From contig CAMPCZ010000003.1 of assembly GCA_946648015.1 (NCBI GenBank), positions 1 to 39,397 of the forward strand: a DNA stretch of 39,397 nt. Reading direction: 5' to 3'. The position numbers and the translations under genes were made by a program. The notes beneath the pieces were generated by a model, which saw nothing but the letters and a program-made list of their open reading frames with translations, made no database searches and was not told where the DNA came from. How positions within the stretch are numbered: position 1 is the first letter of the stretch; the number at the start of each line of letters is the position of its first letter. This DNA comes from an uncultured Clostridia bacterium (GTDB lineage: Bacteria; Bacillota; Clostridia; Christensenellales; CAG-1252). This document shows positions 108 to 38,969 of this stretch, in pieces.

Positions 108-3100
108 ATGAAAGATTACTACCCGCTATCCAAGACAGAAGAGGGCATATATGCGTCTTGTCTACGCCCGACCGACGCGTACAATTTGGCTCACGTCGTG
201 TGTTTGGGCCAATCCGTCGACGCCGAGGCGTTTGCCAACGCGGTATCCGCCGTGTTTGATAAGCACCCCTACTTGTTTAGCGTTCTCTTTGAGGGCGAGG
301 ACGGCACGATCTACAAAAAGATACGCACCAAAGAGATAGTTCTCCCCGTGATAGAGGCCGCTTCGCTCGACGTTCAGTCGCCGCCATACGAGATGTTGGA
401 GCACCATTTGTTCCGGGTGGCATTGTACCACGTCAAGGGCGAATATTGGTTCTATTTCGATTTTCATCATATTTTGTGCGACGGCACTTCCATCAAATTA
501 TTTGCGGACGAGGTCATGCGCGCCTACGAGGGCCAACTGCCGGACAAAGAAGCCTATGGCGCCAACGAATTTGCGCTGGAGGAGCGGCGCCGCTTGCAGA
601 CCAAAGCCTATCGGCAAGCCAAGGCCTTTTTTGACAAGGCGGTGGCCGAGCCCGAGACGGACAGCAACTTGGTGTATGACAAAAACGACGGCGCCGAGGC
701 CTACGCCCAAATGCGCTGTGAACTGACGGTAGCCGACGCCGACGTGAAGGCGTTGACCAAGCGCATAGGCGCCAAAACGTCCTCTTACTTTTTGGCGGCG
801 TTCGCGTTTTTGCTGTCCAAAATCAACAACGACGACAAAGCGCTGTTTCTCACCGTGCACAACGGTCGTACCCCCGCCGTGGCGGCGAGTATGGGAATGT
901 ACGTCAAGACGTTTCCGTTCTACCTACAACATTGCGAGCCGGTAGAGGACTATATCAAAGCGGCCAGCGATTATCTTGCGGGCAGCGCGCAAAACCTGCT
1001 GTATCCCTTCGTGGATATGAACAAAGATATGGGCTTGTCGGCGGGCGTCATGTTTGCCTACCAAGGCGACTATTTCTACAAAACCACGCTACGCGGCAAA
1101 ACGCTCTATATCAAGCAACTGCCGCGCAAAGACGGCAAGGGGCTGTTGAGCGTAGAGTTGCACCGCGACGAAGGGCGCTATTTTGCGGAGGTGGAGTACC
1201 GCAGCGACCTATACCACGAGCATACCATACGCCATCTGATGGGATTGTACGACGTGGCGTTGGGCGAGTTTTTGCGCCGCGAGCGTCTTGCCGACGTGGA
1301 CTTGGTCAACTCGCAGGAAAAAGATTTGTTGGACGGGTTTAACCGCACCGATTTGTCCTATATCGACCCCAATCGCACGGTGCTTTCGGCTTTTGCCGAT
1401 GCGGTGCGCCGTTGGCCCGACCACGACGCCGTGGTGTTTGGGGACAAGCACTACACCTATCGAGAGGTGGATTTACTATCCAATCGCATAGCCAACGAAT
1501 TGCACCGGTTGGGCGTGGGCCGAGAGGACAAAGTGTCGGTGCTCATCAACAAGTCCGAATACATTGTGATAGCCAGCCTCGGCGTGCTCAAGTCGGGCGC
1601 GGCCTATCAACCCCTCGACCCTACCTATCCCAAAGAGCGCCTGTCCTTTATGATAGCCGACGCCGCCGCCAAAGCGCTTATCAAAGATAGAGATCTGTCC
1701 GATCTGTTGGGCGACTACCAAGGCCCCGTGCTGTATACCGACGAGCTTGCTACGCTTCCCGACGTCTCCGCGCCGCAGGATGCGCCTCGGCCCGAAGATC
1801 TGTTTGTTATGCTCTACACCTCGGGCTCGACGGGTCTGCCCAAAGGCGTTATGCTGGAGCACCGCAACGTGTATGCCTTTGCTTGCTTCCACGCGCGTGC
1901 TTGCGGGGTGGACCATACGGCCAAGGTGTCGGCGTACGCATCCTATGGCTTCGACGCCGATATGCTCGATCTCTATCCCACCCTCATTGGGGGCGGAACG
2001 GTGTACGTTATCCCCAACGAGTTGCGGCTGGATCTGCTCAAATTGGGCGCGTACTTCGACCAAAACGGCATTACGCATGCCATGCTCACCACGCAAGTGG
2101 GGCGCCAATTCGCCGAAATGATAGAGCCCAAAACCTTGCGGATGCTAATGGTTGGCGGCGAAAAGCTGGTGCCGATAGACAAGCCCAAAACCTACGATCT
2201 GTACAATGCCTACGGCCCCACCGAGGGCACGGTCTATTGCACCATGCAGTTGGTGGATCGCCTATACTACCGTGTGCCCATAGGCAAAGCGTTGCCCACC
2301 TACAAAACCTACGTGCTGGACAAAAACGGCCGCCGCTTGCCATGCTTGGCCGAGGGCGAACTGTATATAGCCGGGCCCCAAGTGTCGCGCGGGTATCTCA
2401 ATAGGGACGAGGAAAACCGCAAGGCGTTTTTAGTTAATCCCTTCGACGACGACCCCGCTTTCGGCCGCCTATATCGCACGGGCGACGTAGTACGCTACCT
2501 TGCCGACGGCACCATAGACTTCATCGGGCGCAAGGACGGTCAGGTAAAAATCAGAGGATTTCGCGTGGAGTTGGCCGAGGTGGAGCAGGTCATACGCGAG
2601 TACGACGGCATCAAAGACGCCACCGTCAAGGACTTCACCGACCCCAACGGCGTCAAATACATCTGCGCCTACGTGGTGGCCGACCACGACGTGGACGTCG
2701 CCGCGCTCAACGCCTATGTGGGTGCCAAAAAGCCCCCCTATATGGTGCCCGCCTACACCATGCAAATAGACAAGATACCCCTCAACCAAAACCAAAAAGT
2801 CAACAAGAGGGCCTTGCCGCAACCCAAACTCAAAACGCAGGAAAAAGTGGCGCCCGCCACCCCCGCCGAGCAGCAAGTGTACGACGTGCTCAAAGGTATT
2901 TTGGGCAACGATTCTTTCGGCGTGACCACAGACCTTTACGAGGCGGGCCTCACCAGCGTGTCCTCCATACGGTTTGCCATATTGCTGTCCAAATTGTTTG
3001 GCAAAGACGTGGACAATGCCGATCTCAAACAAAACGCCACGGTGCGCGCTTTGGCCGAGCGCTTGTCGCAAAAAGAGGAGGCCAAAACCTACCAAATACA

Positions 3101-6100
3101 AGAGGAATACCCCATATCCAAAACACAAGAGGGCATCTTTGTGGAGTGCGCCGCACACCCCGGCACCACCAACTACAACATACCTATTTTGTTCAAAATG
3201 CCCGCCGATACCGACGTGGACAAGTTGCAGCGTGCGCTGGGTGAGGTGATAGACGCGCACTACTACCTCAAAACCACCCTCTATATGAATGCCGACGGCG
3301 ACATTCGTGCGCGCCGCCCGCATATGCCCGCCCAAGTGGACGTGCGGTCGGTGGCGGCTCTGCCTACCTTGGTGCGCCCCTTCGTGCTGCTGGATGCGCC
3401 CCTCTATCGCGCCGAGATCTATCGCACACCCCACGAGGTGTACTTATTTCTCGATTTTCACCATATCGTGTGCGACGGCACCAGCGAGGCCGTCATCCTC
3501 ACCGATTTGGGGCGAGCCTATATGGGCGAGCCTGTCCAAGCCGAAACCATATCGGGCTTTGAGGTGGCTCTTGCCGAGCGCGACGCGTTGCAGACCGATA
3601 GATTGGACAAGGCCAAGGCTTTCTATCAAGCCCTGCTACAAGACATCGACGGCGAGTACGTCATCAAAAAAGACCTCAAGGTACAGCCCCTATCCCGATT
3701 GCGTTCGGTGGACTATACGCTCGATCTGGACGCCGAAGCCCTATTCGCCTTTGCCGAGGCCAACAAGTTGACGTTGAACGGATACTTCAACTTTGCTTTT
3801 GCCTTTACGTTGTCCAAATTTCTCTACAAAAACGATAGCTTGTACACCACCATTTACAACGGCCGCAATTCTTCCAAATTGGCCGCGACCGTATCTATGT
3901 TGGTCAAGACGTTGCCCGTCTACATTCGCTACGAGGATAGCGACGCCGTGCTGGACAAATTGCACCAAACCAACGATTTGTTGCGCGATTTGCAGGCCAA
4001 CGATCTATATTCGTTTGCCGACGTGGCGCAAGCCTACGACGTTACGGCCGATATTATGTTTGCCTACCAAGGCGACGCGTTTGCGTTCGACCGCATTGGC
4101 GACGTGCCCGTGGAGTCGGTCCTTATCGAGTCGGAAACGCCCAAGAGCGCGTTTTCCATAGACGTCTTCCTCGAAAAAGGCCGTTTCCGCGCGCACTTCG
4201 AGTATGACGAGTCGATGTACAATGCCTCGACGGTGGCCTCGTTCTACCGCTTGTTCGGGCAAGTTTTGCGGGAACTGATGCACCGCCGCCTCGTGGGTGA
4301 TATCGATCTTTTGCCTGCCGAAGACAGGGCGATGTACGCCGCGTTTAACGATACGGCCGTCCAATTCGAGGACGTATCCTTCAACAAATTGATAGAAAAA
4401 CAAGCCCGTCTCAACCCCGACAAACTCGCCGTGGTGGGCGCGGATAGCCGCTATACCTATCGCCAATTCAACGCCGCCGCCAACCGCGTGGCGCACTCGC
4501 TATTGGCGGCCTCGGTATCGCTTGCCGACAAGGTGTTGATGATGATGCCCCGCGTGGCCGAGGCCTACGTCGTGCGGCAAGGCATCGTCAAATCGGGCGG
4601 CGCATTCGTACCCGTAGACCCCAAATATCCCGATGACCGCATAGAGTACATCGTGGCGGATTCGGGCGCAAAAGTGGTGCTGACCACAAGCCGGTTGGCG
4701 CAAGAAAAGCGCGCCCTTCTCGAGCGCGCCGACCTAAGGGTACTTACGGTAGAGGAATGCTTGGCTTGCCACAACGACGCCGACCTCGACTTGGATATAC
4801 CCACCTCGTCGCTGTGCTATATCATCTATACGTCCGGCTCCACCGGCAAGCCCAAGGGCGTGATGATCTCGCATCGCAACTTGGTCAACTATTGTGCGGA
4901 CGGCACCAACATAGGCACCAAGGTCTATCGTGATATAGCGGGCGGCGCCGTGTCCTGTTCGTTCGCTTCCTTCTCCTTCGACGCGTCCTTGCAGGAGGAA
5001 TGCGTGCCTTTGTCGCATGGTTACACCGCCGTTATCGCCACCGAGCAGGAGATAGAAAATCCGCTATTGCTTGCCGACACCTTGCGCCGCGAAAAGGTGA
5101 ACGTCATGTTTATGACGCCCTCGTTCGTATCCAACTTTATAGACGTCGCGCCCTTTGTGGACGCACTCAAGAATTTGCAAGCGTTGGATATGGGCGCCGA
5201 GGCAGTGCCCCAAGCGCTATGCCGAAAACTGCGCGATTTGGGCGTGACCGCCGCCATTTACAACGGCTATGGGCCCACCGAGACCACCATCACTTGCACC
5301 TACCACAAAGTGGAGGACGAATACGTTACCATAGGCAAGCCCTTTGCCAATACCGAGGCCTACATATTGGATAAGGCGGGGCATATATTGCCCATCAACG
5401 CCATAGGCGACCTGACCATAGCGGGCGAGGGCGTAGGCATAGGCTACTTGGGCCAAGCGGACAAGACCCGTGAAAGGTTTATTACCCTCAACGGCCGTCG
5501 CGCTTATCGCACGGGCGATTTGGCGCGCTACAACGGCGAGGGAAATATCGAATTTTTCGGCCGATTAGACAACCAAGTCAAGTTGCGCGGGTTGCGCGTG
5601 GAGTTGGACGAGATCGAAAACGTGTTGTCCACCTATCCCAACCTGTCGCGTTGCATAGTGTTGGTCAAGACCAATCGCACCGACGGCGACTTTTTGGCGG
5701 CCTACTACACCGCCCCCTACGAGATAGACCGCGAGGATCTTACCCGCCATTTGGCCAAGTCGCTCACCCCCTATATGATACCCAAAGTGCTGGTGCAGTT
5801 GGACAAAATGCCCCTCACCGCCAGCGGCAAGATAGACAAAAAGGCATTGCCCGACGTAGAGGTGGAGAAAGAGGCCAAACGGCATACCGCCGCCAAAAAC
5901 GAGTTGCAGCGCAAGCTGTGCGCCATCTTTGCCAAAGCGTTGGGGCTTGACGAAGTGGGCATAGACGAGGATTTCTTCGACTTGGGCGGCACGTCCTTGT
6001 CGGCGTCGAAGATAGCGATGTTGGCGTTGCAAGACAATTTGCCCATCGCCTACAAGGACGTATTCGACTATTCTACGGTGGCAGCCCTCGAGCGCCACGT

Positions 6101-7313
6101 CAAAGAGCAGTCGTCCACCGCCGCACCCGCGGAGCAGGAGGCAGTGGTGGTCAATTCGCTCGACTACAACACCGTGCGCTACGTGGACGGTGTGGAAGCG
6201 TCGCGCCCCCTCGGCCGCGTGTTGGTAACGGGTGCCAACGGCTTTTTGGGCATACACGTTTTGCGCGAGTTGCTCCGCCAAGGGCGGCAGGTCATCGCGC
6301 TGGTGCGTTCCTCTGCGGTGGATGCCACCACCCGACTCAAGAGTTTGCTCACCTACTATTTCGATTCGCCATTAGACGAGGAGGTGGCGCGATACGTTAC
6401 CGTGGTGGACTCGGATATCACCGACGTGCACCTGCCCGAAAAATTGGCGCCTCATGCCTTCGATACCATCATCAACTGCGCGGCGTTGGTCAAGCACTTT
6501 GCCGTGGACGACAGCATAGAGCGCGTCAACGTGGGCGGCGTCAAAAACCTGATAGCCATCGCCAAGGAGCGCGGCGTGCGCTTGGTGCAAATATCCACCT
6601 TGTCCGTAGCCGGCGAGAACGTGGACGGCAAGTTTGACGCTTCCTTCCGTATGAAGGAGAATATGCTCGACTTTGGGCAGGACATCTCCAACAAATACGT
6701 CCATTCCAAATTCAATGCCGAAAAGGCCGTGCTCTCGGCTGTGGACGAGGGGTTGGATGGCAAGGTGATACGCGTCGGCAACCTGATGAGCCGCGCCAGC
6801 GACGGCGAGTTTCAGGCCATCTCCATCACCAACGGCTTTTTGCGCGACCTCAAGGGCTATGCCACGCTGCATTGCTTCCCCGTCAATTCTATGGACGTGG
6901 CCATTGACTTTTCGCCCATCGACGAGGTGGCCAAGGCCGTGTTGTTGCTGTCCAGCACCCCGCGTCGCTACACGGTGTTTCATTGCGCCAACTCGCACCA
7001 GGTGCAAATGGGTGACATTGTGGCGGTGCTCAACGATATGGGCTATGGCATCGAGGTGGTGTCGGACGCGGCGTTTGCGCAGGCTATGCGCGCTATGATG
7101 GCGGACGAAACCAAAAATATGTTGGTGTCTTCGCTCATCAACTACGCCTCCAGCGACAACCACACCTATGCGTTTATTCTCACCGACAACGAGTTTAGCA
7201 ACAAGGCGCTGTATCACTTGGGGTACAAGTGGCCCATAACGGACGACGCCTATCTCAGGCAGGCCATCGAGTCGCTCGAGGGGCTCAACTTCTTCGTTAG
7301 GAGTGATATTTGA
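108..7313 (+). CDS. Dimodular non-ribosomal peptide synthetase, C-A-PCP-C-A-PCP-thioester reductase
   Basis: 2401 aa ORF. Condensation motifs HHILCDG and HHIVCDG; adenylation motifs LYTSGSTGLPKG and IYTSGSTGKPKG, NAYGPTE/NGYGPTE, YRTGD; PCP motifs GLTSVSS and DLGGTSLSASK; C-terminal NAD(P)-binding reductase TGANGFLG with YVHSK (YxxxK). Confidence 0.95.
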   Translation: MKDYYPLSKTEEGIYASCLRPTDAYNLAHVVCLGQSVDAEAFANAVSAVFDKHPYLFSVLFEGEDGTIYKKIRTKEIVLPVIEAASLDVQSPPYEMLEHHLFRVALYHVKGEYWFYFDFHHILCDGTSIKLFADEVMRAYEGQLPDKEAYGANEFALEERRRLQTKAYRQAKAFFDKAVAEPETDSNLVYDKNDGAEAYAQMRCELTVADADVKALTKRIGAKTSSYFLAAFAFLLSKINNDDKALFLTVHNGRTPAVAASMGMYVKTFPFYLQHCEPVEDYIKAASDYLAGSAQNLLYPFVDMNKDMGLSAGVMFAYQGDYFYKTTLRGKTLYIKQLPRKDGKGLLSVELHRDEGRYFAEVEYRSDLYHEHTIRHLMGLYDVALGEFLRRERLADVDLVNSQEKDLLDGFNRTDLSYIDPNRTVLSAFADAVRRWPDHDAVVFGDKHYTYREVDLLSNRIANELHRLGVGREDKVSVLINKSEYIVIASLGVLKSGAAYQPLDPTYPKERLSFMIADAAAKALIKDRDLSDLLGDYQGPVLYTDELATLPDVSAPQDAPRPEDLFVMLYTSGSTGLPKGVMLEHRNVYAFACFHARACGVDHTAKVSAYASYGFDADMLDLYPTLIGGGTVYVIPNELRLDLLKLGAYFDQNGITHAMLTTQVGRQFAEMIEPKTLRMLMVGGEKLVPIDKPKTYDLYNAYGPTEGTVYCTMQLVDRLYYRVPIGKALPTYKTYVLDKNGRRLPCLAEGELYIAGPQVSRGYLNRDEENRKAFLVNPFDDDPAFGRLYRTGDVVRYLADGTIDFIGRKDGQVKIRGFRVELAEVEQVIREYDGIKDATVKDFTDPNGVKYICAYVVADHDVDVAALNAYVGAKKPPYMVPAYTMQIDKIPLNQNQKVNKRALPQPKLKTQEKVAPATPAEQQVYDVLKGILGNDSFGVTTDLYEAGLTSVSSIRFAILLSKLFGKDVDNADLKQNATVRALAERLSQKEEAKTYQIQEEYPISKTQEGIFVECAAHPGTTNYNIPILFKMPADTDVDKLQRALGEVIDAHYYLKTTLYMNADGDIRARRPHMPAQVDVRSVAALPTLVRPFVLLDAPLYRAEIYRTPHEVYLFLDFHHIVCDGTSEAVILTDLGRAYMGEPVQAETISGFEVALAERDALQTDRLDKAKAFYQALLQDIDGEYVIKKDLKVQPLSRLRSVDYTLDLDAEALFAFAEANKLTLNGYFNFAFAFTLSKFLYKNDSLYTTIYNGRNSSKLAATVSMLVKTLPVYIRYEDSDAVLDKLHQTNDLLRDLQANDLYSFADVAQAYDVTADIMFAYQGDAFAFDRIGDVPVESVLIESETPKSAFSIDVFLEKGRFRAHFEYDESMYNASTVASFYRLFGQVLRELMHRRLVGDIDLLPAEDRAMYAAFNDTAVQFEDVSFNKLIEKQARLNPDKLAVVGADSRYTYRQFNAAANRVAHSLLAASVSLADKVLMMMPRVAEAYVVRQGIVKSGGAFVPVDPKYPDDRIEYIVADSGAKVVLTTSRLAQEKRALLERADLRVLTVEECLACHNDADLDLDIPTSSLCYIIYTSGSTGKPKGVMISHRNLVNYCADGTNIGTKVYRDIAGGAVSCSFASFSFDASLQEECVPLSHGYTAVIATEQEIENPLLLADTLRREKVNVMFMTPSFVSNFIDVAPFVDALKNLQALDMGAEAVPQALCRKLRDLGVTAAIYNGYGPTETTITCTYHKVEDEYVTIGKPFANTEAYILDKAGHILPINAIGDLTIAGEGVGIGYLGQADKTRERFITLNGRRAYRTGDLARYNGEGNIEFFGRLDNQVKLRGLRVELDEIENVLSTYPNLSRCIVLVKTNRTDGDFLAAYYTAPYEIDREDLTRHLAKSLTPYMIPKVLVQLDKMPLTASGKIDKKALPDVEVEKEAKRHTAAKNELQRKLCAIFAKALGLDEVGIDEDFFDLGGTSLSASKIAMLALQDNLPIAYKDVFDYSTVAALERHVKEQSSTAAPAEQEAVVVNSLDYNTVRYVDGVEASRPLGRVLVTGANGFLGIHVLRELLRQGRQVIALVRSSAVDATTRLKSLLTYYFDSPLDEEVARYVTVVDSDITDVHLPEKLAPHAFDTIINCAALVKHFAVDDSIERVNVGGVKNLIAIAKERGVRLVQISTLSVAGENVDGKFDASFRMKENMLDFGQDISNKYVHSKFNAEKAVLSAVDEGLDGKVIRVGNLMSRASDGEFQAISITNGFLRDLKGYATLHCFPVNSMDVAIDFSPIDEVAKAVLLLSSTPRRYTVFHCANSHQVQMGDIVAVLNDMGYGIEVVSDAAFAQAMRAMMADETKNMLVSSLINYASSDNHTYAFILTDNEFSNKALYHLGYKWPITDDAYLRQAIESLEGLNFFVRSDI

Positions 7314-9073
7314 TGAAACGCAATAGCAAACTGATCGACAAAAAGTTTTACCAATATCTATTGCCGTCGGTGCTGATGATATTCGCCATGCAATTCGGCT
7401 CGCTCATCGACGGCATATTGGTGGGCAATTTGTTGGGGCCGGACGCTTTGAGCGCGTCGTCTTTGGTGATGCCCGTACTCTACGTCATACAGTGCCCCGG
7501 CTTTGCCTTGAGCGTGGGCGGCTCCATTGCCATTGCCAATTTGTTGGGGCGCCGCAACGTAGAGCAGGCCAACAAGGTGTTTTCGCTCAGTTTGCTGGTT
7601 ACCTTGGGCGCGTCGGCGCTGTTTGCCGTGGCGGCGCCCTTTACGTCGGGGCCGCTTGCGCGCTTGTTTGCTCCCTCGCTATATGAGTATTCCTACCAAT
7701 ACATATTGGTGTATATGTTGCAAAATCCCGTGATGATGCTCGCTTTGGTTTTGGCGACGTTTATCTCCACCGACAACAACCCCAAACTGTCGGCCGCCTT
7801 TTACATCGTGGCCAATTTGGTCAAGATAGGGGTGGAAGTGCTGTTTATTCGTGTGTGCGGTATGGGTATGGTCGGCGCGGCGCTCTCCTCGGGCGTAGGC
7901 TATGCCGTGGGGCTTGTTACCGTGGTGTTTTATGCCCGTTCCAAAAAGAGAATGTTGCGCTACACCTGGCGCCTTCGCGGGGCGTGGGCCGACTTTAAGG
8001 ACGCCCTCAAGGCCTCGGTATCCACCGCGCTTACCTTGCTGCTTACCGCGGTGCAGACCCTTGTCATCAACGTGGTGCTGAGCCGTATGATCACGGCCGA
8101 GTTGGAGTTGGTCATATTTGGTTTGGTCAGCAACCTCATCTTCGTGTTCGACCTCTTTTCGGGCGGCATATTGGGGCTTATCCCCACTATATGCGGCGTG
8201 CTGTACGGCGAACGCGACGTATATTCGTTGCGCGCGGTAAGCAGCAAGATATACCTATTTAACCTCATCGTTACCGCCCTCATCACCGCCGTCATTATGG
8301 CGTGGCCAGAGGGGTATTCGGCGCTTTTTGGCTATGCGGGCGAAGATATGCGGCAGGTGGCGTACGTCTTGCGCATTTACCTGTTGTCCGCCATACCCCT
8401 CGAAGTCAACAAGTTTTCTACCAATTACTACCCCGCGGTCAACAAAAACTTGCCCGCCGTCGTCACCGTGTTGTTGCGCGAGGCCGTGTTTATCATACCC
8501 CTCACGTTGCTGTTGATGCGTGCGCAGGGCATTTTGGGCTATTCGCTTGCTCGCGTCATCACCGAGTACGCCACCGTGGTGGTGGTGTACGCACTGGTGT
8601 TTGTCTACGAGCGCCGCCACCGTGAGGTGCACGGCTTGTTTATGCTGGAGCGACCCGATATGAATACGTTTGACGTTTCGGTGGCCAACAAAGAGGAGGA
8701 GGCCGCCCAAGCGGCGAGGGAAGTGACGGAATTCGCCAAGGCGCACGACGTATCCAACCGCGATGCGCAGGTGTTGGGGTTTGCGTGCGAGGAGATGATC
8801 ACCAATATCATACGCTACGGCTACAAACGCCAATGCCCCAAGTCGATAGACGTCAACGTCAAGGTGGACGAGTCGCAGGTGCTGATGCGCATACGCGACG
8901 ACGGTATGCCCTTTGACCCCACCGAATACAAGTACGAAGAGAGCGAGCAATACCTTACCGGTGGCATTGCCATGATGTTGGGGTTGGTCGACGAAACGAG
9001 TTATATGCGGGTGCTCAATATGAACAACACCGTTTTCAAAATCAATATAGGAGAAAAAGTTTATGGAGATTAA
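7313..9073 (+). CDS. MATE-family efflux transporter with C-terminal RsbW/SpoIIAB-like HATPase domain
   Basis: ORF track starts at a TTG at 7310; the ATG at 7313 overlaps the NRPS stop (TGATG). N-terminal multi-TM MATE (FYQYLLPSVLMIFAMQFGSLIDGILVGNLLG...). C-terminal HATPase motifs: N-box EEMITNIIRYGY, G1 DDGMPFDP, G2 GGIAMMLGLVD. Confidence 0.9.
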   Translation: MKRNSKLIDKKFYQYLLPSVLMIFAMQFGSLIDGILVGNLLGPDALSASSLVMPVLYVIQCPGFALSVGGSIAIANLLGRRNVEQANKVFSLSLLVTLGASALFAVAAPFTSGPLARLFAPSLYEYSYQYILVYMLQNPVMMLALVLATFISTDNNPKLSAAFYIVANLVKIGVEVLFIRVCGMGMVGAALSSGVGYAVGLVTVVFYARSKKRMLRYTWRLRGAWADFKDALKASVSTALTLLLTAVQTLVINVVLSRMITAELELVIFGLVSNLIFVFDLFSGGILGLIPTICGVLYGERDVYSLRAVSSKIYLFNLIVTALITAVIMAWPEGYSALFGYAGEDMRQVAYVLRIYLLSAIPLEVNKFSTNYYPAVNKNLPAVVTVLLREAVFIIPLTLLLMRAQGILGYSLARVITEYATVVVVYALVFVYERRHREVHGLFMLERPDMNTFDVSVANKEEEAAQAAREVTEFAKAHDVSNRDAQVLGFACEEMITNIIRYGYKRQCPKSIDVNVKVDESQVLMRIRDDGMPFDPTEYKYEESEQYLTGGIAMMLGLVDETSYMRVLNMNNTVFKINIGEKVYGD

Positions 9074-9359
9074 CGTACAACACAACCAAGCAATGATCGT
9101 TACCGTCAAAGGTCGTCTGGATACCGTTACCTCGCGTGAGTTGGAGCCCGTGGTGCTGGGTCAAACCATTGCCGAGCCCACCGTCATCATCGACTTTGCC
9201 GAGGTGGAGTACATCTCGTCGGCGGGTCTACGCGTTTTGCTCAACCTCAAGCGTGAGTTGGACTCGGCGGGCAAGACCTTGGAGATACACAACATCAACG
9301 CCGTCGTGCGCGAAATATTCAGCGTAACAGGCTTCATCAACGCCCTCACCATCAAGTAG
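9063..9359 (+). CDS. STAS-domain anti-sigma-factor antagonist (SpoIIAA/RsbV-like)
   Basis: 98 aa; GRLDTVTSRELE and YISSAGLRVLL phospho-serine motif; start overlaps the end of the MATE-HATPase ORF. Confidence 0.93.
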   Translation: MEINVQHNQAMIVTVKGRLDTVTSRELEPVVLGQTIAEPTVIIDFAEVEYISSAGLRVLLNLKRELDSAGKTLEIHNINAVVREIFSVTGFINALTIK

Positions 9360-9368
9360 CGGCAGGCT

Positions 9369-11513
9369 ATGAAAATCAGTCTTCGCGTCAAAGTCGTATT
9401 GATGACTTTGGTTTTGGCGCTGACGCTCATCGGGTCGTCGGTGCTTATCTCTTCGCTCATCTTTTCGGCGCGATCCGAGGCCGACGAGTTGGACGATTGC
9501 CGCAGTGCCGCCGCCAATATGACCGAGCGCATCGAGGAATATAGCACCTACTACGAGTTTATCGGCGAATACGTGGCGGAAATACAGTCGATATATGCCG
9601 AAAATTACGACGACCTGGTGTACCATTCGCAAAACGAATTCGATTCCCCCGAGCAAGAGGCAGCCTACTACGGCGGCTTGACGCGGCACTTGTTTCCGGC
9701 GAGCAACGGCGGCTTGGGCATGAGCCTCGTTCAGCTCAACTTCAAAATGCACTACTACGACGTTTTCAACGAGTTGTTGCTGGTGTCCAACGTCTTCGAT
9801 ACCGAGGGCGGATACATTTTTTGGTACGACAGCGAGCACGACTACGTGGTATATTTGATGGACGCCACCGACGAGAGTTCGCCCCTGTACGCCTATCCGG
9901 CCAGCATAGAGCACCCCTCGCAACAATGGAAAGATGCCGCGCTTGCGCGCGCCGAAGTGGCGGCGTACGTCAAAAAGAACGACTACGGCAAGTATTGCTA
10001 TAGTTCGTGCCCCGTGGTGGACAAAGAAACGGGGGAGACCATCGCCTACGTCGGGTTCAATTACGATATGGGCAAGTTGCAAAAGACGCAGCGAGACTAC
10101 ATCACCACCATCACCCTCATTATGTTGGTCGCTATGGTGGTGATAGCCGTCGTCTATCTGTTGTTGGCCGAAGTGTTTTTGGTCAAAAACATTCGCACGC
10201 TGTCCCATTCTACCGCCGAATTTACCCAAATGCTCGCGGGTGGCAAGGCGCTCAGGCCCGTGGTCAGCCACGTCAAATCGCACGATGAGATAGGCGCGCT
10301 GTCCCGCCAATTCGACGTGATGCAAGAAAAGTTGGTGCAGTACGTGGACGCATTGGAGCAAAAGAAAGAGGAAGAGCATCGCCGCGGCGCCGAGTTGGCC
10401 ATCGCCGCCAATATACAAAACGAAGAATTGCCCGCCGGTGCCTACGAAGACGGCGCTGTCAAGGTGTCGGCCGACATCACTTCCGCCAAAGAGGTGGGCG
10501 GCGATTTTTACGACTACTTTTACATCGACGCGGGTCGTTTGGCTGTGGTGATAGCCGACGTTTCGGGCAAGGGCGTGCCCGCGGCGCTGTTTATGATGAA
10601 GGCAAAGAGCCTTATCAAGACCAAATTGCAGGCAACGGGCGATCTTTTGGCAACTATGTACGAGGTCAACAACACGCTGTTGGACAACAACAAGCAGGGG
10701 TTGTTCGTAACGGCTTTCGTCGGCGTCATCGACTTGGCCGAGCGCCGTATGGAATGCGTCAGCGCAGGCCACGAAAAACCCTATCTCGTAGGGGACGGCA
10801 AGGTTTGCCGCCTATCGGTCAATTCCAACTTTGTGCTGGCAGGGCTCAAAAACTTTGCCTACACCAAGGACGTGGTGGATTTGCGCGGCAAGCGCCTATT
10901 CCTCTTTACCGACGGGCTCAACGAGTCTATCAACGCCGCCGGCGAGGAGTTCGGATATGCTCGCATAGAGCAGTCGCTGTCGCAATGCCTTGCCGACACC
11001 CAAGAGCAGACCTTTGCACGAGTCAAAGGCGATCTGCGGGACTTTGTGGGCGAAGCGGAGCCCTTCGACGACGTTACCTTGCTTGCGGTCGAGCTCAAGG
11101 AGGGCGGTCGTTTCGAAGTCACCTACACCAACCCCGACTACGACGTGATAGAGGACGCTACCGATCGGTGCAACGCCGCTTTTGCCCATATAGGCAAAGA
11201 ACGACTGTCGTTGTTGGACGTGGTCATCGACGAGGTGATCAACAACGTGGTCAGCTACGAAAAACACGACGGTTTGCTACTCAAAGTGGAGGGCAAACTG
11301 GAAGAGGACTGCGCGGTGTTGACCTTTTCATCCAACGGCCCCCCGTTCAACCCCATCGGCGTGCAGGACAAATACCTGGATAGCATCGACGCCGATACCG
11401 CTGCGGGCGGCTTCGGCATGACCATTACGCGCCGCATAAGCGACGACATCGACTATCGGCGTGCCGACGGCTTCAACGTGCTGGTGGTCAAAAAGAGTTT
11501 GAAAGACAATTAG
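9369..11513 (+). CDS. Membrane SpoIIE/RsbU-type PP2C phosphatase with extracytoplasmic sensor, HAMP-like linker and C-terminal HATPase-like domain
   Basis: 714 aa; N-terminal TM, about 190 aa loop, second TM; PP2C motifs EVGGDFYD, ADVSGKGVPAALFMM, SAGHEKP, LFTDGLNE, PFDDVTLL; C-terminal DEVINNVVSYE and GGFGMTITRR. Confidence 0.92.
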   Translation: MKISLRVKVVLMTLVLALTLIGSSVLISSLIFSARSEADELDDCRSAAANMTERIEEYSTYYEFIGEYVAEIQSIYAENYDDLVYHSQNEFDSPEQEAAYYGGLTRHLFPASNGGLGMSLVQLNFKMHYYDVFNELLLVSNVFDTEGGYIFWYDSEHDYVVYLMDATDESSPLYAYPASIEHPSQQWKDAALARAEVAAYVKKNDYGKYCYSSCPVVDKETGETIAYVGFNYDMGKLQKTQRDYITTITLIMLVAMVVIAVVYLLLAEVFLVKNIRTLSHSTAEFTQMLAGGKALRPVVSHVKSHDEIGALSRQFDVMQEKLVQYVDALEQKKEEEHRRGAELAIAANIQNEELPAGAYEDGAVKVSADITSAKEVGGDFYDYFYIDAGRLAVVIADVSGKGVPAALFMMKAKSLIKTKLQATGDLLATMYEVNNTLLDNNKQGLFVTAFVGVIDLAERRMECVSAGHEKPYLVGDGKVCRLSVNSNFVLAGLKNFAYTKDVVDLRGKRLFLFTDGLNESINAAGEEFGYARIEQSLSQCLADTQEQTFARVKGDLRDFVGEAEPFDDVTLLAVELKEGGRFEVTYTNPDYDVIEDATDRCNAAFAHIGKERLSLLDVVIDEVINNVVSYEKHDGLLLKVEGKLEEDCAVLTFSSNGPPFNPIGVQDKYLDSIDADTAAGGFGMTITRRISDDIDYRRADGFNVLVVKKSLKDN

Positions 11514-27129: not shown

Positions 27130-27995
27130 TCACTTCTATCGGCGAAATATTGGTGGACAAGTTGGTCAAGCAAGACCAAACGGTTTGCCACGTGGGCGGC
27201 GCGCCCTTCAACGTGGCGGTAGGCGCCGCTCGGTGCGGCAGTACGGTACGCTTTGTGGGTAAAGTGGGCGCCGACGAGATGGGCGATTTTTTGTTGCGCG
27301 AAGTGCCTCGCTACGGCGTGGACGCCCGCATAGCGGTCGACCCAGTCCGCCCCACCACGGTGGCGTTGGTCACCCTCGAGGATGGCGAGCGATCCTTTCG
27401 CTTTTTGCGCGACAATGCGGCCGACTATCACCTGGAGGAGGCGGATATGCGGGTGGCCGAGGGTAGCACCATCGTACACTTGGGCACGTTGATGCTGTCC
27501 AAGCCCGAGGGGCGTTTGGCCGCGGGCATAGCGGTGCGTTTGGCGCGCCAGAGCGGCGCAATGCTGTCGGTGGACGCCAATTTCCGCGACGATCTGTTTG
27601 CCACCAAAGCCTTGCGAAACGAGATCATGCGGCCCTATCTGATGGCCGCCGACATACTCAAGATGAGCGCCGATGAGTTGGTGGATTTCACGGGTGTGGA
27701 CGACCTCGACTTGGCGGTGAACGCGCTGGGCTACGACGGCTTGCTGTTCGTTACGGCGGGCAAAGAGCCTTCGCGCGCCTACTGGCATGGCTACAAGGTA
27801 GAGGAGGCGCCCCCCGTTTTGCCGAGCGTCGTAGATACGACCGGGGCGGGCGACGCTTTTTTCGGCGCGGTGCTGTCCCAGCTTGACGCAATATATCTTA
27901 GGGGGCAACAACCCACGCCCTCGGCTTTACAGCGCATATTGAACGTTGCCAATCGCTACGGCGCCGAGGCGACGCAAAGGGAGGGAGCGGTATGA
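27126..27995 (+). CDS. PfkB-family carbohydrate kinase (fructokinase-like)
   Basis: ATG 27126 overlapping the manA stop (ATGA); VGGAPFNVAVGAARCG, SVDANFRDDLF, VVDTTGAGDAFFGAVLSQL. Confidence 0.9.
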   Translation: MITSIGEILVDKLVKQDQTVCHVGGAPFNVAVGAARCGSTVRFVGKVGADEMGDFLLREVPRYGVDARIAVDPVRPTTVALVTLEDGERSFRFLRDNAADYHLEEADMRVAEGSTIVHLGTLMLSKPEGRLAAGIAVRLARQSGAMLSVDANFRDDLFATKALRNEIMRPYLMAADILKMSADELVDFTGVDDLDLAVNALGYDGLLFVTAGKEPSRAYWHGYKVEEAPPVLPSVVDTTGAGDAFFGAVLSQLDAIYLRGQQPTPSALQRILNVANRYGAEATQREGAV

Positions 27996-30907
27996 TCACC
28001 ATTATCAAGATGTTGGCGGCGGGGCTGATGAAACACCCCAACATAGCGCGCCACGCGCTCAAAGTGAAAAAGAAAGTGTTTCGTCCCGTTGCCGAGTTGA
28101 CGGTAGACGCCTACCCCACGGCCGAGCCTATAGCGCTGTCGGCGGTGGACAACGTCGAGGCCGTTCGCATGAAAAAAGGCAAACTGTGGGCACGGGAGCA
28201 CTTCGGTTCGTGCTGGTTCCACCTGATGGGAACGGTGCCCGCCGAGGCCGCGGGCGCTCATTTGGTCATATTGATGAAGGTGCAGGGCGAGGGTTTGTCG
28301 TACGACGGCGACGAAACGGGCGACCTTATCACCTCTATTTTGTCGGTACCCGACGTGTTGCAACCCCCCACCGTCGGCAAGTGCGTCATAGACCTTGGCG
28401 AGGGCGCCGCGGCAGGCACCGCTGTCGACAAATGGGTGGATGCGGGCTACAACGGCATCAACGGCAATTTCCTTTTCAAAGCCAAGTTTTGCTATGCCAC
28501 TTTGGCCGTGCGCGACGAGGCATTGTGGGACTACTACTACGACTATATGACGTTGGCGTTGCTGTTGGCGACCGACGGCCGCAATCCGCGCTTGACGCCC
28601 GCGCTCAAAGAGAAATTGCTGTCTACCCTTGCCGAAGCCAACGTATTGTACGACAATCACCGGCTGGAGGCCGCGCATAAGGTGCTGCGCCGCTACTACG
28701 ATCTGCCCAATACCCAAGAGGGCGTGCGCTACACGCTGGTGGGGCACGCGCACCTCGACTTAGCCTGGATGTGGCCCAAGCGCGAAAGTATGCGCAAGGC
28801 CGTGCGTTCGCTTACCAATGCGGTGCGTCAAGCCGAGCGTTGCCCCGACTACGTGTTTGGCGTTAGCCAAGCCCAAATGCTCGATTGGGTGCGCCAAAGC
28901 ACCCCCACGTTGTTTGAAAAGTTGCGCCAACTGGTGGACAAAGGCAACGTGGAATTGCAGGGCGGTATGTGGGTAGAGTGCGATTGCAATTTGCCTTCGG
29001 GCGAGAGTTTGGTGCGCCAATTCGTCTATGGCGACGAATTCTTTTTGCGCTACTTCGGGCGCACTTCGTCTACGGTGTGGCTGCCCGACGCGTTCGGTTT
29101 TCCCTACACGTTGCCGCAAATCATCAAAGGTGTGGGCAAGGCTTATTTCGCCACCACCAAAATCAACTGGAACAGAGTCAACAAATTCCCCTACCAAAGT
29201 TTTCGCTGGATAGGGCCCGACGGTAGCGCGGTGCTCGCGCATATATCGCCCGAAGGCACCTATTGCAACGATGGCACCCCGCTGGCGGTGGCCAAGGCCG
29301 AGGCGCGCAACGTGCAAAAAGAAACGGGCACGGCGCTCCTCATCTACGGCGTAGGCGACGGTGGCGGCGGCCCCGGCGAGGGACACGTGCAGTTGGCGCG
29401 TCGCTCGGTAGGGTTGGAGGGCATGGCGCGCACACGGCTTGGCAGTGCCCAAAGCTTTTTTGAAGAGTTGGCCGAGGTAAAGGGCTTGCCCGACTACGAC
29501 GGCGAATTGTACCTCGAATACCACCGCGGCACCTATACCTCGCAGGCCGCCAACAAGCGGTGTAATCGCATAGCCGAGCGCGAGTTGCATACACTCGAGT
29601 GGTTGTTGGCACAAAAGGGATTGGACGACCATTGCACGCACGAGCTGTGGAAAACGGTGCTTTTCAACCAATTTCACGATATTTTGCCGGGGTCGGGCAT
29701 AGAGCGCGTTCATCGCGAGAGCGTGGACGAATTGCAGTCCGCCATAGACAGGATGCGGCGCGAAATAGCCGCCTTGCTGCCTGCGAAAGAAGGCGTGGGC
29801 TGGCTCAATCCCTCCCCCTTCGGTCGCGCCGAGTACCAAACCCACCAAGGCGCCGTCTATCTCGTGCGGGCGGATGGCTACAGTTCGGCCACCTACACGC
29901 CCGTTGCCACAGATAGCCGCGTAGGGGACGATTGTATCGAAAACGATTTGGTAAAAGTGGTCTTTGACAAAGGCGTCATCGTATCCTATCGGGACAAAAC
30001 CACCGGGATCGAGCACGCCAAAGGCGGGCTGAACCGCTTGCGCCTCTACTACGACAAGGACAAGCGCTACGACGCATGGAACCTCGGGCCGGACTACCAA
30101 AACCACCCACGCGCCATACGCTATCTGGGCGCCGAGGCCTATATGGATGGCGGGGACGCCGTGATGGCATTGCGCTTTGGATTGCCCCACGGCGAGGTGC
30201 GGCAACAAGTGCGTTTGGGGTACGGCAAAGCGGTGCGCTTCGACACCGTGGTGGATTGGTATGAGGAGCACCTTGACTTGCGCGCCGACTTTGTGCCCAC
30301 CATCTATGCGCCCAAGGCGACTTGCGATATCCAATTCGGTTCCATCGAGCGCGACACCACCAACGATACCTCGATAGCGCGCGCTCAAATCGAAGTTTGC
30401 GCGCACAAATACGTCTCCGTCGCCGACGAAAGGGGCATATTTGCGCTGTACAACGATTGCAAGTACGGCCACCGCCTCAAAGAGGGAGTGCTGAGCCTCA
30501 ACCTGCTGCGCAGTCCCAAAAAGCCCGACCCGCAATGCGATATGGGCACGCATCATTTTTCCTATGCGATGGATATACCCGCCGACCCCATGGCGGCGGT
30601 CGCAGCCGCATACAATTTCAATATGCCTATGCTCAAGACCGAGGGAGACGCCGCCATACGGCCGATGGTGTCGGCGGATAGCTCCAACGTGGTGATAGAG
30701 ACAATCAAACCGCGCCGCGACGGCAAAGGCTTTGCGGTGCGCCTCTACGAGCGATCGGGCGTTGCCACCGAGTGCAAATTGTCGTTTGCCGCGCCCTACA
30801 AGAGTTTGGCAGTTGCCGATTTGTTGGAGCAAAACGCCCGCCCCGCCGAAGAAGTGCTACGCTTTGCGCCGCACGAGATCAAGACTTTGTTGGTCGAAAG
30901 GGAGTAG
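27992..30907 (+). CDS. GH38-family alpha-mannosidase
   Basis: 971 aa; GHAHLDLAWMWPKRE, WLPDAFGFPYTLPQI, EYHRGTYTSQAANKRCNRIAEREL; no signal peptide; ATGA overlap with the upstream kinase. Confidence 0.92.
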   Translation: MITIIKMLAAGLMKHPNIARHALKVKKKVFRPVAELTVDAYPTAEPIALSAVDNVEAVRMKKGKLWAREHFGSCWFHLMGTVPAEAAGAHLVILMKVQGEGLSYDGDETGDLITSILSVPDVLQPPTVGKCVIDLGEGAAAGTAVDKWVDAGYNGINGNFLFKAKFCYATLAVRDEALWDYYYDYMTLALLLATDGRNPRLTPALKEKLLSTLAEANVLYDNHRLEAAHKVLRRYYDLPNTQEGVRYTLVGHAHLDLAWMWPKRESMRKAVRSLTNAVRQAERCPDYVFGVSQAQMLDWVRQSTPTLFEKLRQLVDKGNVELQGGMWVECDCNLPSGESLVRQFVYGDEFFLRYFGRTSSTVWLPDAFGFPYTLPQIIKGVGKAYFATTKINWNRVNKFPYQSFRWIGPDGSAVLAHISPEGTYCNDGTPLAVAKAEARNVQKETGTALLIYGVGDGGGGPGEGHVQLARRSVGLEGMARTRLGSAQSFFEELAEVKGLPDYDGELYLEYHRGTYTSQAANKRCNRIAERELHTLEWLLAQKGLDDHCTHELWKTVLFNQFHDILPGSGIERVHRESVDELQSAIDRMRREIAALLPAKEGVGWLNPSPFGRAEYQTHQGAVYLVRADGYSSATYTPVATDSRVGDDCIENDLVKVVFDKGVIVSYRDKTTGIEHAKGGLNRLRLYYDKDKRYDAWNLGPDYQNHPRAIRYLGAEAYMDGGDAVMALRFGLPHGEVRQQVRLGYGKAVRFDTVVDWYEEHLDLRADFVPTIYAPKATCDIQFGSIERDTTNDTSIARAQIEVCAHKYVSVADERGIFALYNDCKYGHRLKEGVLSLNLLRSPKKPDPQCDMGTHHFSYAMDIPADPMAAVAAAYNFNMPMLKTEGDAAIRPMVSADSSNVVIETIKPRRDGKGFAVRLYERSGVATECKLSFAAPYKSLAVADLLEQNARPAEEVLRFAPHEIKTLLVERE

Positions 30908-35667: not shown

Positions 35668-35698
35668 GCAAAAACCCCGCCGTGGGCGGGGTTTTTGC
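35668..35698 (+). terminator. Rho-independent terminator
   Basis: GCAAAAACCCCGCC-GTG-GGCGGGGTTTTTGC. Confidence 0.85.
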
Positions 35699-35819
35699 TC
35701 GTTTTGGCGCCGAAAAGACAAATCATGGGGTATTGAGGTAAAAAATATTGCTTAATGGGTTAAAAATAAAATATTATATGTTATAATTGTATAGTATCAC
35801 AATGATATGGAGGTAGATT

Positions 35820-37883
35820 ATGCCCACCAAAAGCATACGCGAGATGAGCAAGTTCGAGTTGATGCACTACTCGTTGCGCGCAAGGACGTTTCACGCCATA
35901 TTGGTATTGTCGCTGGTGCTTTGCTCTTTTGCGCTCGGCTTCGGCATTTTTTTCTATGTGCGCGACGCGGTTACCCAAGTGGAGCATAGCGTATCGTCTT
36001 TGTCCGAGATGTGTGCCGACGTTATAGACGGCGACCAACTACGATCCTATCGCGATAGGGTTTTTGCGGACGACGAAACGGTACTGGAAGATACCGGGTA
36101 TCGCACTTTGTCATCCGTGTTGGCGTCGGTCGCTCAGCACAACGATCTCAGTTCCATTTTTATCGGTATGCCCACGCCGGACGCATTGCAATTCCGCTTT
36201 ATTCTCAATCCCGACGAGTCCAACAGCACGCAGAAAGCGGGTGTAACCATAGATATGGACGAGGGGCGCACCAGGACCTACCAAGGTATTGGCGACATCA
36301 ACAACGCCATTGTGCTCAAACTCACCGACGGCACCTATGCTTGCTCGGCGGGCGCGCCCGTTTTTGCCTCGGACGGCACCATAGCGGGCTACGTCGTTTG
36401 CAACGTGGCGCTGACGCATATCGTCGAGATGTCGCGCACGTTTGTGTGGCAATTCGTCGTGGTGTTGGCCATCATTACCTTCATAGTGGCATTTTTCGTT
36501 ACCTGGCACATCAAGCGCACCGTTGCCGCTCCCATCAATCGCTTGGCCACGGCCGCCGCGCAATACGTGCAGGACAAGCGCGAAGGTAAAGATACCACCG
36601 ATCATTTCGCTTCTCTCAACATCAAGACGGGCGATGAGATCGAAAACCTTTCCCTGATTATGAGCGATATGGAGCAGGACTTGAGCGAATACGAAAAGAA
36701 CCTGACTGCCACTACGGCCGAAAAGGAGCGCATTGGCGCCGAGCTCGACATTGCCAGCCAGATCCAAGAGGGAATGCTGCCCAACATCTTCCCGCCTTTC
36801 CCCGATAGGCACGAATTCGATATATACGCCACTATGCACCCCGCCAAAGAGGTGGGCGGCGATTTTTACGATTTCTTCCTTATCGATGACGACCACTTGG
36901 CGTTGGTGATAGCGGACGTATCGGGCAAGGGCGTGCCCGCCGCTATGTTTATGATGGCCAGCAAGATACTCATCTACAACTATGCCGTCATAGACGGTAC
37001 CTCGCCCGCACGCATTCTCGAAAAGGTCAATCACACCATTTGTCTCAACAACAAGGCCGATATGTTCGTAACGGTTTGGCTGGGCATTTTGGAGTTGTCC
37101 ACCGGTCGCCTCAGGGCCGCCAACGCCGGCCACGAGTTCCCTGTTGTCGAGCGAGTGGGCGCGGGTTACGAACTTTTGCGCGATAAGCACGGGGTCGTCA
37201 TCGGTGCAATGGACGGCGTGCGCTATTGTGATTACGACGTCGAATTGTCGGCCGGAGATAGCATTTTCGTGTATACGGACGGTGTGCCCGAGGCCACCGA
37301 CCGCGACAATAGTCAGTATGGCGTCGAGCGTATGCTTGCGGCGCTCAATCGCGTAAAAGGTGCCGAATGCCGCACCATTCTCGAGGCAGTCAAGGGCGAT
37401 ATAGACGCCTTTGTGGGTGAAGCGCCGCAATTTGATGACGTTACCATGCTTGGCGTGCGCTACAACGGCGCGGGTATGGCTCGCAAGACTTTATTGGCGC
37501 GCCCCGAGGCCTTGCCCGAAGTGCTGGCCTTTGTGGACGCAGCGTTGGAGGCTGCGGAGTGCGCGCCCAAGGCGCAAATGCAAATCGACGTTGCCGTAGA
37601 GGAACTATTCGTCAATATCGCCAGCTATGCCTACGGTGCCGAAAGAGGTACGGCTGTGGTGGGCGTTGGCATAGATCTGCCCACGCGTATGGCCACTATA
37701 ACCTTTGCCGACAGCGGCACACCCTACGATCCGTTTGCCAAGGCCGACCCCGACATCACGTTGTCGGCCGAAGAGCGATCGGTGGGCGGACTGGGCGTAT
37801 TTATGGTCAAAAAGACGATGGACGAAGTGGCATACGAGTACAAAAACGGCCAAAACGTTACCACAATCCGCAAAAAGATATAG
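35820..37883 (+). CDS. Membrane SpoIIE/RsbU-type PP2C phosphatase with C-terminal HATPase kinase domain
   Basis: 687 aa; two TMs flanking a sensor loop, HAMP-like region; EVGGDFYDFF, ADVSGKGVPAAMFMM, NAGHEFP, VYTDGVPEA, QFDDVTML; C-terminal VEELFVNIASYAYG, DSGTPYDP, GGLGVFMVKKTMD. Confidence 0.93.
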   Translation: MPTKSIREMSKFELMHYSLRARTFHAILVLSLVLCSFALGFGIFFYVRDAVTQVEHSVSSLSEMCADVIDGDQLRSYRDRVFADDETVLEDTGYRTLSSVLASVAQHNDLSSIFIGMPTPDALQFRFILNPDESNSTQKAGVTIDMDEGRTRTYQGIGDINNAIVLKLTDGTYACSAGAPVFASDGTIAGYVVCNVALTHIVEMSRTFVWQFVVVLAIITFIVAFFVTWHIKRTVAAPINRLATAAAQYVQDKREGKDTTDHFASLNIKTGDEIENLSLIMSDMEQDLSEYEKNLTATTAEKERIGAELDIASQIQEGMLPNIFPPFPDRHEFDIYATMHPAKEVGGDFYDFFLIDDDHLALVIADVSGKGVPAAMFMMASKILIYNYAVIDGTSPARILEKVNHTICLNNKADMFVTVWLGILELSTGRLRAANAGHEFPVVERVGAGYELLRDKHGVVIGAMDGVRYCDYDVELSAGDSIFVYTDGVPEATDRDNSQYGVERMLAALNRVKGAECRTILEAVKGDIDAFVGEAPQFDDVTMLGVRYNGAGMARKTLLARPEALPEVLAFVDAALEAAECAPKAQMQIDVAVEELFVNIASYAYGAERGTAVVGVGIDLPTRMATITFADSGTPYDPFAKADPDITLSAEERSVGGLGVFMVKKTMDEVAYEYKNGQNVTTIRKKI

Positions 37884-37914
37884 CGATAAGCGAGCAAATT
37901 GTCGCCAAAAGCAC

Positions 37915-37942
37915 TTGCGCCATTGTGGATATATGATATAAT
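37915..37942 (+). promoter_or_regulatory. Promoter for the HATPase-like/STAS pair
   Basis: TTGCGC, 16-nt spacer, TATAAT. Confidence 0.5.
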
Positions 37943-38020
37943 ATAAATAGGCGACGTGCGGGGAAGTATCCGTGCGACTTGCCTATAGTATGCCTTGGGT
38001 ATAAAAAGAGGAGAATAGCA

Positions 38021-38620
38021 ATGAAATCGGATATTGTTCACGTTACAAACGGCGGCGTCGGTGTCCAAGACGCCTTTGCGCAGACCGAAAAAGTGGCCGA
38101 ATATAGGGGTTTAGACAAAAAAAGCACCCTGCATTTGCGCCTTTTTGCGGAAGAAATGATGGGTATGATGCAGGCTATCACCGGCGAGCATGAGGCCGAC
38201 TTTTGGTTGGAATCCGACGGGAGCGAAGTCTCCTTGCATCTAAGGGCCGAAACCATGATGAATACCGAGTTGCGCAAGAATTTGCTGGCTGCCTCCACCT
38301 CGGGCAAAAATGCCGCTGCCAAGGGCGTGATGGGCAAGATCAAGGATATTTTCGAGCGCTTTTTGGAGCCTGTGGACAACAGACCGTTGCCTGCGTCCGT
38401 CTACGTGGCCGGCACCACCTATATGGGCACGGATATGTTTGCCACTACAGGCATGTGTTTGTGGTCGCTCAATCAATATAAAGCTTCAATCCACGAGGAA
38501 AACGCACCCCAAGAAAGTTGGGACGAACTCGAAAAGTCGATAGTGTCCAAGTTGGCTGACGAAGTGAAGATCGCCATAGCCGACAACACCGTCGAAATGA
38601 TCATTTACAAGAAATTCTAA
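38021..38620 (+). CDS. Divergent HATPase-like (anti-sigma kinase-related) protein
   Basis: ATG 38021 after AGAGGAG; LHLRLFAEEMMGMMQAITGEHEADFWLESDGSEVSLHLRAETMMN resembles a HATPase N-box region but lacks the Asn; located between a PP2C and a STAS gene. Confidence 0.6.
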   Translation: MKSDIVHVTNGGVGVQDAFAQTEKVAEYRGLDKKSTLHLRLFAEEMMGMMQAITGEHEADFWLESDGSEVSLHLRAETMMNTELRKNLLAASTSGKNAAAKGVMGKIKDIFERFLEPVDNRPLPASVYVAGTTYMGTDMFATTGMCLWSLNQYKASIHEENAPQESWDELEKSIVSKLADEVKIAIADNTVEMIIYKKF

Positions 38621-38630
38621 GGAGGCGAAT

Positions 38631-38927
38631 ATGACTATCAATCAATCCCTGAATGGCACCGAACTTACCATTGCTTTGGCGGGCAGACTGGATACGACCA
38701 CATCGCCCGAGTTGGAGACCGCACTGCGCACTTCGCTCGAAGGCGTCACGTCCCTCATCTTTGATATGAAAGAGCTCGAATACATCTCTTCGGCAGGATT
38801 GCGCGTGTTGTTGAGCGCCCAAAAGACGATGAATCGCCAAGGCAAAATGAAGGTCGTCAACGTATGCGAGTTGGTCAACGAAGTGTTTGAGATCACGGGT
38901 TTCACCGACATTTTGACCATTGAATAA
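38631..38927 (+). CDS. STAS-domain anti-sigma-factor antagonist
   Basis: 98 aa; GRLDTTTSPELE, YISSAGLRVLL; paralogous to 9063-9359. Confidence 0.93.
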   Translation: MTINQSLNGTELTIALAGRLDTTTSPELETALRTSLEGVTSLIFDMKELEYISSAGLRVLLSAQKTMNRQGKMKVVNVCELVNEVFEITGFTDILTIE

Positions 38928-38946: not shown

Positions 38947-38969
38947 GCTTCCCGCATGGGAAGCTTTTT
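38947..38969 (+). terminator. Rho-independent terminator
   Basis: GCTTCCC-GCAT-GGGAAGC + TTTTT. Confidence 0.8.

Follow-up and report, generated by a model that had tools for sequence, protein, structure and literature searches.

Gene content of the locus

The window spans contig C3 completely (39.4 kb); the genome comprises 1.74 Mb in 161 contigs. Module 2 consists of three + strand genes flanked by two terminator-like hairpins. A sequence-only reading of this DNA had described these genes as a PP2C-HATPase, a HATPase-like protein and a STAS protein, and all three were confirmed at the coordinates given. The first gene (35820-37883, +) encodes a 687-aa membrane sensor PP2C with a C-terminal HATPase, as assigned by Pfam, hydropathy and motif positions. 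The second (38021-38620, +) encodes a 199-aa protein of no named family, labeled X198 (queries used residues 2-199), to which AlphaFold2 and Foldseek assign a SpoIIAB/RsbW-like fold and a 39-sequence alignment a degenerate ATP site; with synteny also considered, it is a proposed partner or adaptor of the STAS protein. The third (38631-38927, +) encodes a 98-aa STAS protein with an ISSAG motif, identified by Pfam/TIGR00377 and by the motif. A hairpin with a 14-pair stem and a T tail (35668-35698, +) closes the upstream unit and a second, seen in the sequence at 38947-38964 (+), closes module 2. The region has no more terminator-like sites than shuffled sequences do, though the 35668-35698 stem is strong. 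A promoter-like site (35760-35787, +; TTAAAA-16-TATAAT, TG extended) lies 5' of the phosphatase gene and is a consensus match only. A GH38 alpha-mannosidase-type protein is encoded at 27992-30907, 4.9 kb before module 2, and one is also found directly 3' of X198-STAS at L006:6938-9867.

Module 1 lies at the other end of the contig. Its neighbor is a 2401-aa NRPS (108-7313, +) with the order C-A-T-C-A-T-reductase. It contains a 587-aa MATE transporter with a C-terminal HATPase (7310-9073, +; Pfam and relatives), a 98-aa STAS protein (9063-9359, +; Pfam) and a 714-aa PP2C with a weaker HATPase that has lost the G1 Asp (9369-11513, +; Pfam and motifs). The module ends at 11513, so the gap to module 2 is 24.3 kb, in line with the 24 kb proposed earlier. 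The window has three Pfam-level HATPase domains (the MATE and the two PP2C proteins); the 199-aa protein would therefore be a fourth. Genome-wide, SpoIIE domains occur in three proteins, namely the two module phosphatases and SpoIIE itself, which is encoded on C4. STAS domains occur in four: one protein in each module, SpoIIAA on C91, and a 530-aa STAS-APH-HATPase fusion on C1. Five HATPase_c_2 domains score above the cut-off.

Sensor phosphatase and STAS protein

The module-2 phosphatase matches Pfam SpoIIE at residues 356-548 (E 4.8e-45) and HATPase_c_2 at residues 560-685 (E 3e-20). Hydropathy places transmembrane (TM) segments at about residues 25-47 and 205-231 with an extracytoplasmic part at about 50-204, which suggests that the sensor lies outside the cytoplasm and is about 155 residues long. 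This region gave a poor structure model (pLDDT 54). No receiver domain was matched in the N-terminus, which carries the two-TM sensor instead. The PPM metal motifs are intact (GGDFYD 346, ADVSGKG 365, YTDG 485, FDD 538). The HATPase retains the N-box E/N (VEELFVN, 593), G1 (ADSGTPYDP, 630) and G2 (GGLGVFM, 656), which bears out the earlier view that this domain is intact and that the phosphatase chain carries a putative kinase. The module-1 HATPase, in which the G1 Asp is lost, reads SSNGPPFNP at this box and still scores above the Pfam cut-off (34.6 vs 27.4 bits). Nearly all sampled genomes of the family have the sporulation-type SpoIIE; module phosphatases with strong scores are accessory there and occur in the genus of the window alone.

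The module-2 STAS protein matches the STAS family with an E-value of 3e-15. The ISSAG serines are residues 53-54, and in a manual alignment Ser 54 matches the SpoIIAA phosphoserine, so the protein carries a predicted phosphorylatable Ser. Three motifs had been listed as common to the two STAS proteins. GRLDTxTSxEL and YISSAGLRVLL do occur in both; the third differs slightly, module 2 having ITGF..ILTI and module 1 VTGF..ALTI. The module-2 STAS is 42% identical to the module-1 STAS and up to 71% identical to STAS proteins of other families.

The 199-aa protein

The 199-aa protein has no Pfam or NCBIfam family match, nor do 16 of its relatives, and a PDB sequence search returned chance matches only. 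AlphaFold2 was run on 16 sequences. The core of the 199-aa protein (residues 1-80 and about 170-198) has a pLDDT of about 85-93 and GHKL topology; residues 91-166 were modeled with low confidence. Foldseek matched the core to SpoIIAB, RsbW, UsfX-RsfB and SiaB (6kko) with probabilities of 0.93-1.0 (0.96-1.0 for SpoIIAB, RsbW and SiaB), TM-scores of 0.5-0.7 by target length and E-values of 0.01-0.2. Given these E-values, the models are a strong hint, short of proof, that the core folds like SpoIIAB, RsbW and SiaB. The earlier label of this protein as HATPase-like thus holds at the level of the fold and does not extend to a sequence family. Membership in the SiaB family was rejected on the same profile searches; only the fold resembles SiaB. 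Tandem fusions of two X198 copies, about 400 aa long, occur at L085:5965-7164 and L088:5822-7045.

When the X198 profile was compared with those of canonical HATPases, the alignment covered no more than part of the N-box helix, with a probability of 1.4%. The N-box Asn (position 48) is absent in 39/39 X198 sequences, where it is replaced by Met (33), Leu (5) or Ile (1), and none of the 39 has the DxG adenine motif. The invariant residues are E43 and E44 (the N-box Glu pair), N96, E170, S172 and A178, and GxxG is retained in most of the sequences. The Asn is required for Mg-ATP in active GHKL kinases. Its loss makes it the likelier reading of the alignment that the 199-aa protein has lost catalysis. 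The conserved stretch STSGxNxAAKGxxG may represent a nucleotide site in altered form, so ATP may still be bound.

The 199-aa protein may instead be an active, atypical STAS kinase, acting as SiaB does on SiaC, with the HATPase of the phosphatase being regulatory or redundant. SiaB, itself among the fold matches, is described as an unusual kinase that accompanies a STAS-like protein and a PP2C (PMC7278518). The best NCBIfam match of the module-2 phosphatase is SiaA, at a score far under the cut-off, and at L016 an X198-STAS-PP2C set has a PP2C without a HATPase. However, the missing Asn and DxG motif, the failure of all 16 X198 members to match the Pfam family of SiaB, and the canonical HATPase found beside X198 in L075, L171, L010 and the window all count against an active kinase, which is considered rather unlikely. 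Since canonical HATPase domains coexist with it in many loci, the 199-aa protein is not simply a missing kinase.

Distribution and gene neighborhoods

The closest named records for the 199-aa gene are Clostridia MAGs, many of them from the rumen. Full-strength X198 matches occur in 24/291 genomes of the class (25 at threshold) and in 15/181 genera. In the family, X198 was found in 2/20 genomes, both of the genus of the window, and it is patchy within that genus. Phylum-wide it was found in 4/399 genomes, two of them outside the class.

A STAS gene lies within 150 bp of X198 in 27/38 loci and within 6 kb in 33/38. PP2C genes lie within 6 kb in 15/38 loci. At least one of STAS, PP2C, STAS-APH or MATE-HATPase is within 6 kb in 34/38 loci, with none in the other 4/38. 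The L075 locus of another family has the order X198-STAS-PP2C-MATE-HATPase-STAS-APH-HATPase-PHP in one operon. The operon of L086 is MATE-X198-STAS-PP2C; a HATPase-like frame stands apart from the MATE gene, whose tail scores below the Pfam threshold. That of L083 reads PP2C-STAS-X198-STAS-HD-STAS-APH. In L010, an A-T-C NRPS protein comes after X198-STAS-PP2C-STAS. Further operons with STAS-APH-HATPase are L142 (STAS-PP2C-STAS-APH-HATPase-HD_4-like-...-MATE) and both L144 and L145 (STAS-PP2C-STAS-APH-HATPase). Switch genes are linked to NRPS genes in L165 (same genus), L010, L170/L171 and L138.

X198 (24 genomes) and STAS-APH (18 genomes) share 12 of the 291 class genomes, where 1.5 would be expected (Fisher 6e-11, relatedness ignored). 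Counted by genus, the only correction for relatedness that was applied, 9 genera are shared (14 and 14 of 181; 1.1 expected). X198 is also present in 9/13 genomes with a strict MATE-HATPase (1.1 expected, relatedness ignored).

Several other features were seen in these neighborhoods. At L170:3282-5186 and L171:3106-4974, both outside the class, a condensation-domain protein with a weak cNMP-binding match is encoded directly 5' of STAS-X198; in L171 a HATPase gene lies between them. Genes judged by eye to be HD hydrolase-like and RelA-like adjoin STAS-PP2C-X198 at L079:6031-7619, which suggests alarmone metabolism near the switch at that locus. The 530-aa STAS-APH-like kinase-HATPase fusion (L039:1480-3072, the same as C1:18228-19814 of the window genome) is about 58-63% identical in distant clostridial families, and its APH part matches TIGR02172 under the cut-off. 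STAS-APH-HATPase often adjoins an HD_4 (SpoT/MESH1-like) protein, and in L167 HD_4 and STAS-APH are fused. The MATE-HATPase (7310-9073) has counterparts beside NRPSs in five other genomes of the class; elsewhere it occurs beside PP2C or STAS-APH without an NRPS.

Sigma factors

Module 2 had been described as lacking a sigma factor, and no sigma-70 region 2 was found on the 39.4-kb contig. The genome has 8 sigma-70 region 2 genes elsewhere, so module 2 could be an ordinary switch that controls one of them. PP2C/HATPase/STAS sets usually serve sigma factors (PMC8256260), and RpoS can be bound by HsbR-type kinase domains (PMC6482189). The only sigma factor linked to STAS/HATPase genes is SigF; however, it has its own SpoIIAB and its own SpoIIAA, which is 26% identical to the module-2 STAS. 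Likewise, no sigma gene was recognized in the X198 neighborhoods, where the neighbors were read by eye and domain-scanned in part. A sigma-directed switch is thus judged unlikely. In other gut Clostridia, the neighbors of the related genes include peptide synthetases, a transporter and a STAS-kinase fusion and not sigma factors, which suggests a different kind of output.

Relationship of the two modules

The two modules had been called paralogous, with a phylogeny proposed to date the duplication. In the PP2C tree, a 12-row clade (99/94) unites the module-2 PP2C with sequences from other families, and the module-1 PP2C falls in a separate NRPS-linked clade (100/100). Sisterhood of the two is rejected (AU p 1.2e-25). 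An earlier tree without the same-genus NRPS-linked rows gave an AU p of 0.007 only, with a long branch. The STAS tree (99 columns) does not decide the matter (AU p 0.35). Paralogy therefore stands, but the PP2C tree rejects a recent local duplication of module 1: the two phosphatases come from old clades that are distinct, which leaves no local event to be dated.

Another family (L138) repeats the module-1 order NRPS-MATE-HATPase-STAS-PP2C, and four further genomes have NRPS-MATE-HATPase. In the same-genus genome G307, one strand (L165) carries a module-2-type PP2C, STAS-APH, NRPS, MATE-HATPase, module-1 STAS and module-1 PP2C, with the MATE-HATPase 66% identical over 589 columns; this genome has no X198 match. 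G304, also of this genus, has PP2C-X198-STAS in the order of the window at L149; at a separate locus, L168, it has NRPS-STAS-PP2C but no MATE match. In the window genome itself, modules 1 and 2 are 24 kb apart and STAS-APH is encoded on a different contig.

Cross-talk between modules 1 and 2 is a credible prediction, and the linkage of both module types in one cluster at L165 raises its odds. Counting against it is the selectivity of SpoIIE and RsbU, which distinguish paralogous STAS substrates by factors of about 4000 and 400, respectively (PMC11418112). Such substrate preference of PPM phosphatases, together with the old separate PP2C clades, would fit a module 2 that is fully insulated from module 1, functionally unrelated to it and serving its own adaptor only. 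However, the L165 cluster and the joint operons with MATE-HATPase elsewhere speak against insulation, which is held to be possible and on balance doubtful.

Proposed mechanism

Partner switching is best known for freeing sigma factors. The domains, motifs, fold, synteny and co-occurrence described here tentatively favor, with somewhat less than an even chance, a partner switch with a non-sigma output in which the 199-aa protein is a non-catalytic partner of the STAS protein. The two-TM sensor protein would phosphorylate the STAS at the ISSAG serine through its HATPase and dephosphorylate it through its PP2C domain. The 199-aa protein, without the residues that hold Mg-ATP, would most likely bind one phospho-form of the STAS without phosphorylating it, and may thus serve as an adaptor or as the partner that is switched. 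Once released or captured, the STAS may then act on the STAS-APH-HATPase protein and on the MATE-HATPase/NRPS module 1, so that export or synthesis would be tuned post-translationally. A more specific version is speculative and, taken as a whole, improbable though not remote: the sensor phosphatase/kinase, the STAS and a pseudo-anti-sigma adaptor would directly gate the MATE-HATPase exporter, the STAS-APH-HATPase fusion and the accompanying NRPS, controlling peptide synthesis or export post-translationally without a sigma factor.

Among the papers searched for the parts in combination, none describes the MATE-HATPase/STAS-APH/NRPS set. As far as that literature goes, two things are new: the unnamed 199-aa family, and the repeated association of the switch genes with MATE-HATPase, STAS-APH and NRPS. 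The same switch parts are repeatedly accompanied by NRPSs, a transporter and a kinase fusion, with no sigma factor linked to them, and one of the recurrent parts belongs to the unnamed family. If the adaptor is a dead relative of anti-sigma factors, it would show how such switches can be rewired to other outputs and would offer an entry point to the regulation of NRPS products in gut and rumen Clostridia.

Comparison with known systems

Kinase and phosphatase in one chain are already known from HsbR (PMC6482189), and non-sigma outputs are known from SiaABCD (PMC7278518) and from BtrUVW and others (PMC8256260). HsbR-HsbA of Pseudomonas and CrsR-CrsA of Shewanella resemble module 2 in having a PP2C and an anti-sigma-type kinase in one chain with one STAS protein, and the module-2 phosphatase has the PP2C-HATPase order of HsbR. 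HsbA also has a non-sigma target, HsbD, similar to the output proposed here. However, HsbR is a response regulator, whereas module 2 has a two-TM sensor and the extra 199-aa protein.

The SiaA-SiaB-SiaC-SiaD system of Pseudomonas shares a membrane PP2C, a HATPase-fold protein and a STAS-like substrate with module 2, and its output is an enzyme instead of a sigma factor, as would suit the proposed non-sigma output. It differs in that the module-2 substrate is a canonical STAS (PF01740) and the module-2 HATPase-fold protein is outside the SiaB family by sequence. No SiaD-type diguanylate cyclase was seen in module 2 itself, and the contig ends 470 bases downstream of it.

MlaFB and SLC26/SulP provide precedent for a STAS domain acting on a transporter. 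In contrast, the transporter here is a MATE protein that itself carries a HATPase, and its regulation is only inferred. RsbU-RsbV-RsbW and SpoIIE-SpoIIAA-SpoIIAB share the domain types and the likely phosphoserine switch with module 2, which differs from both in having no linked sigma factor, a kinase fused to the phosphatase and an additional degenerate HATPase-fold protein.
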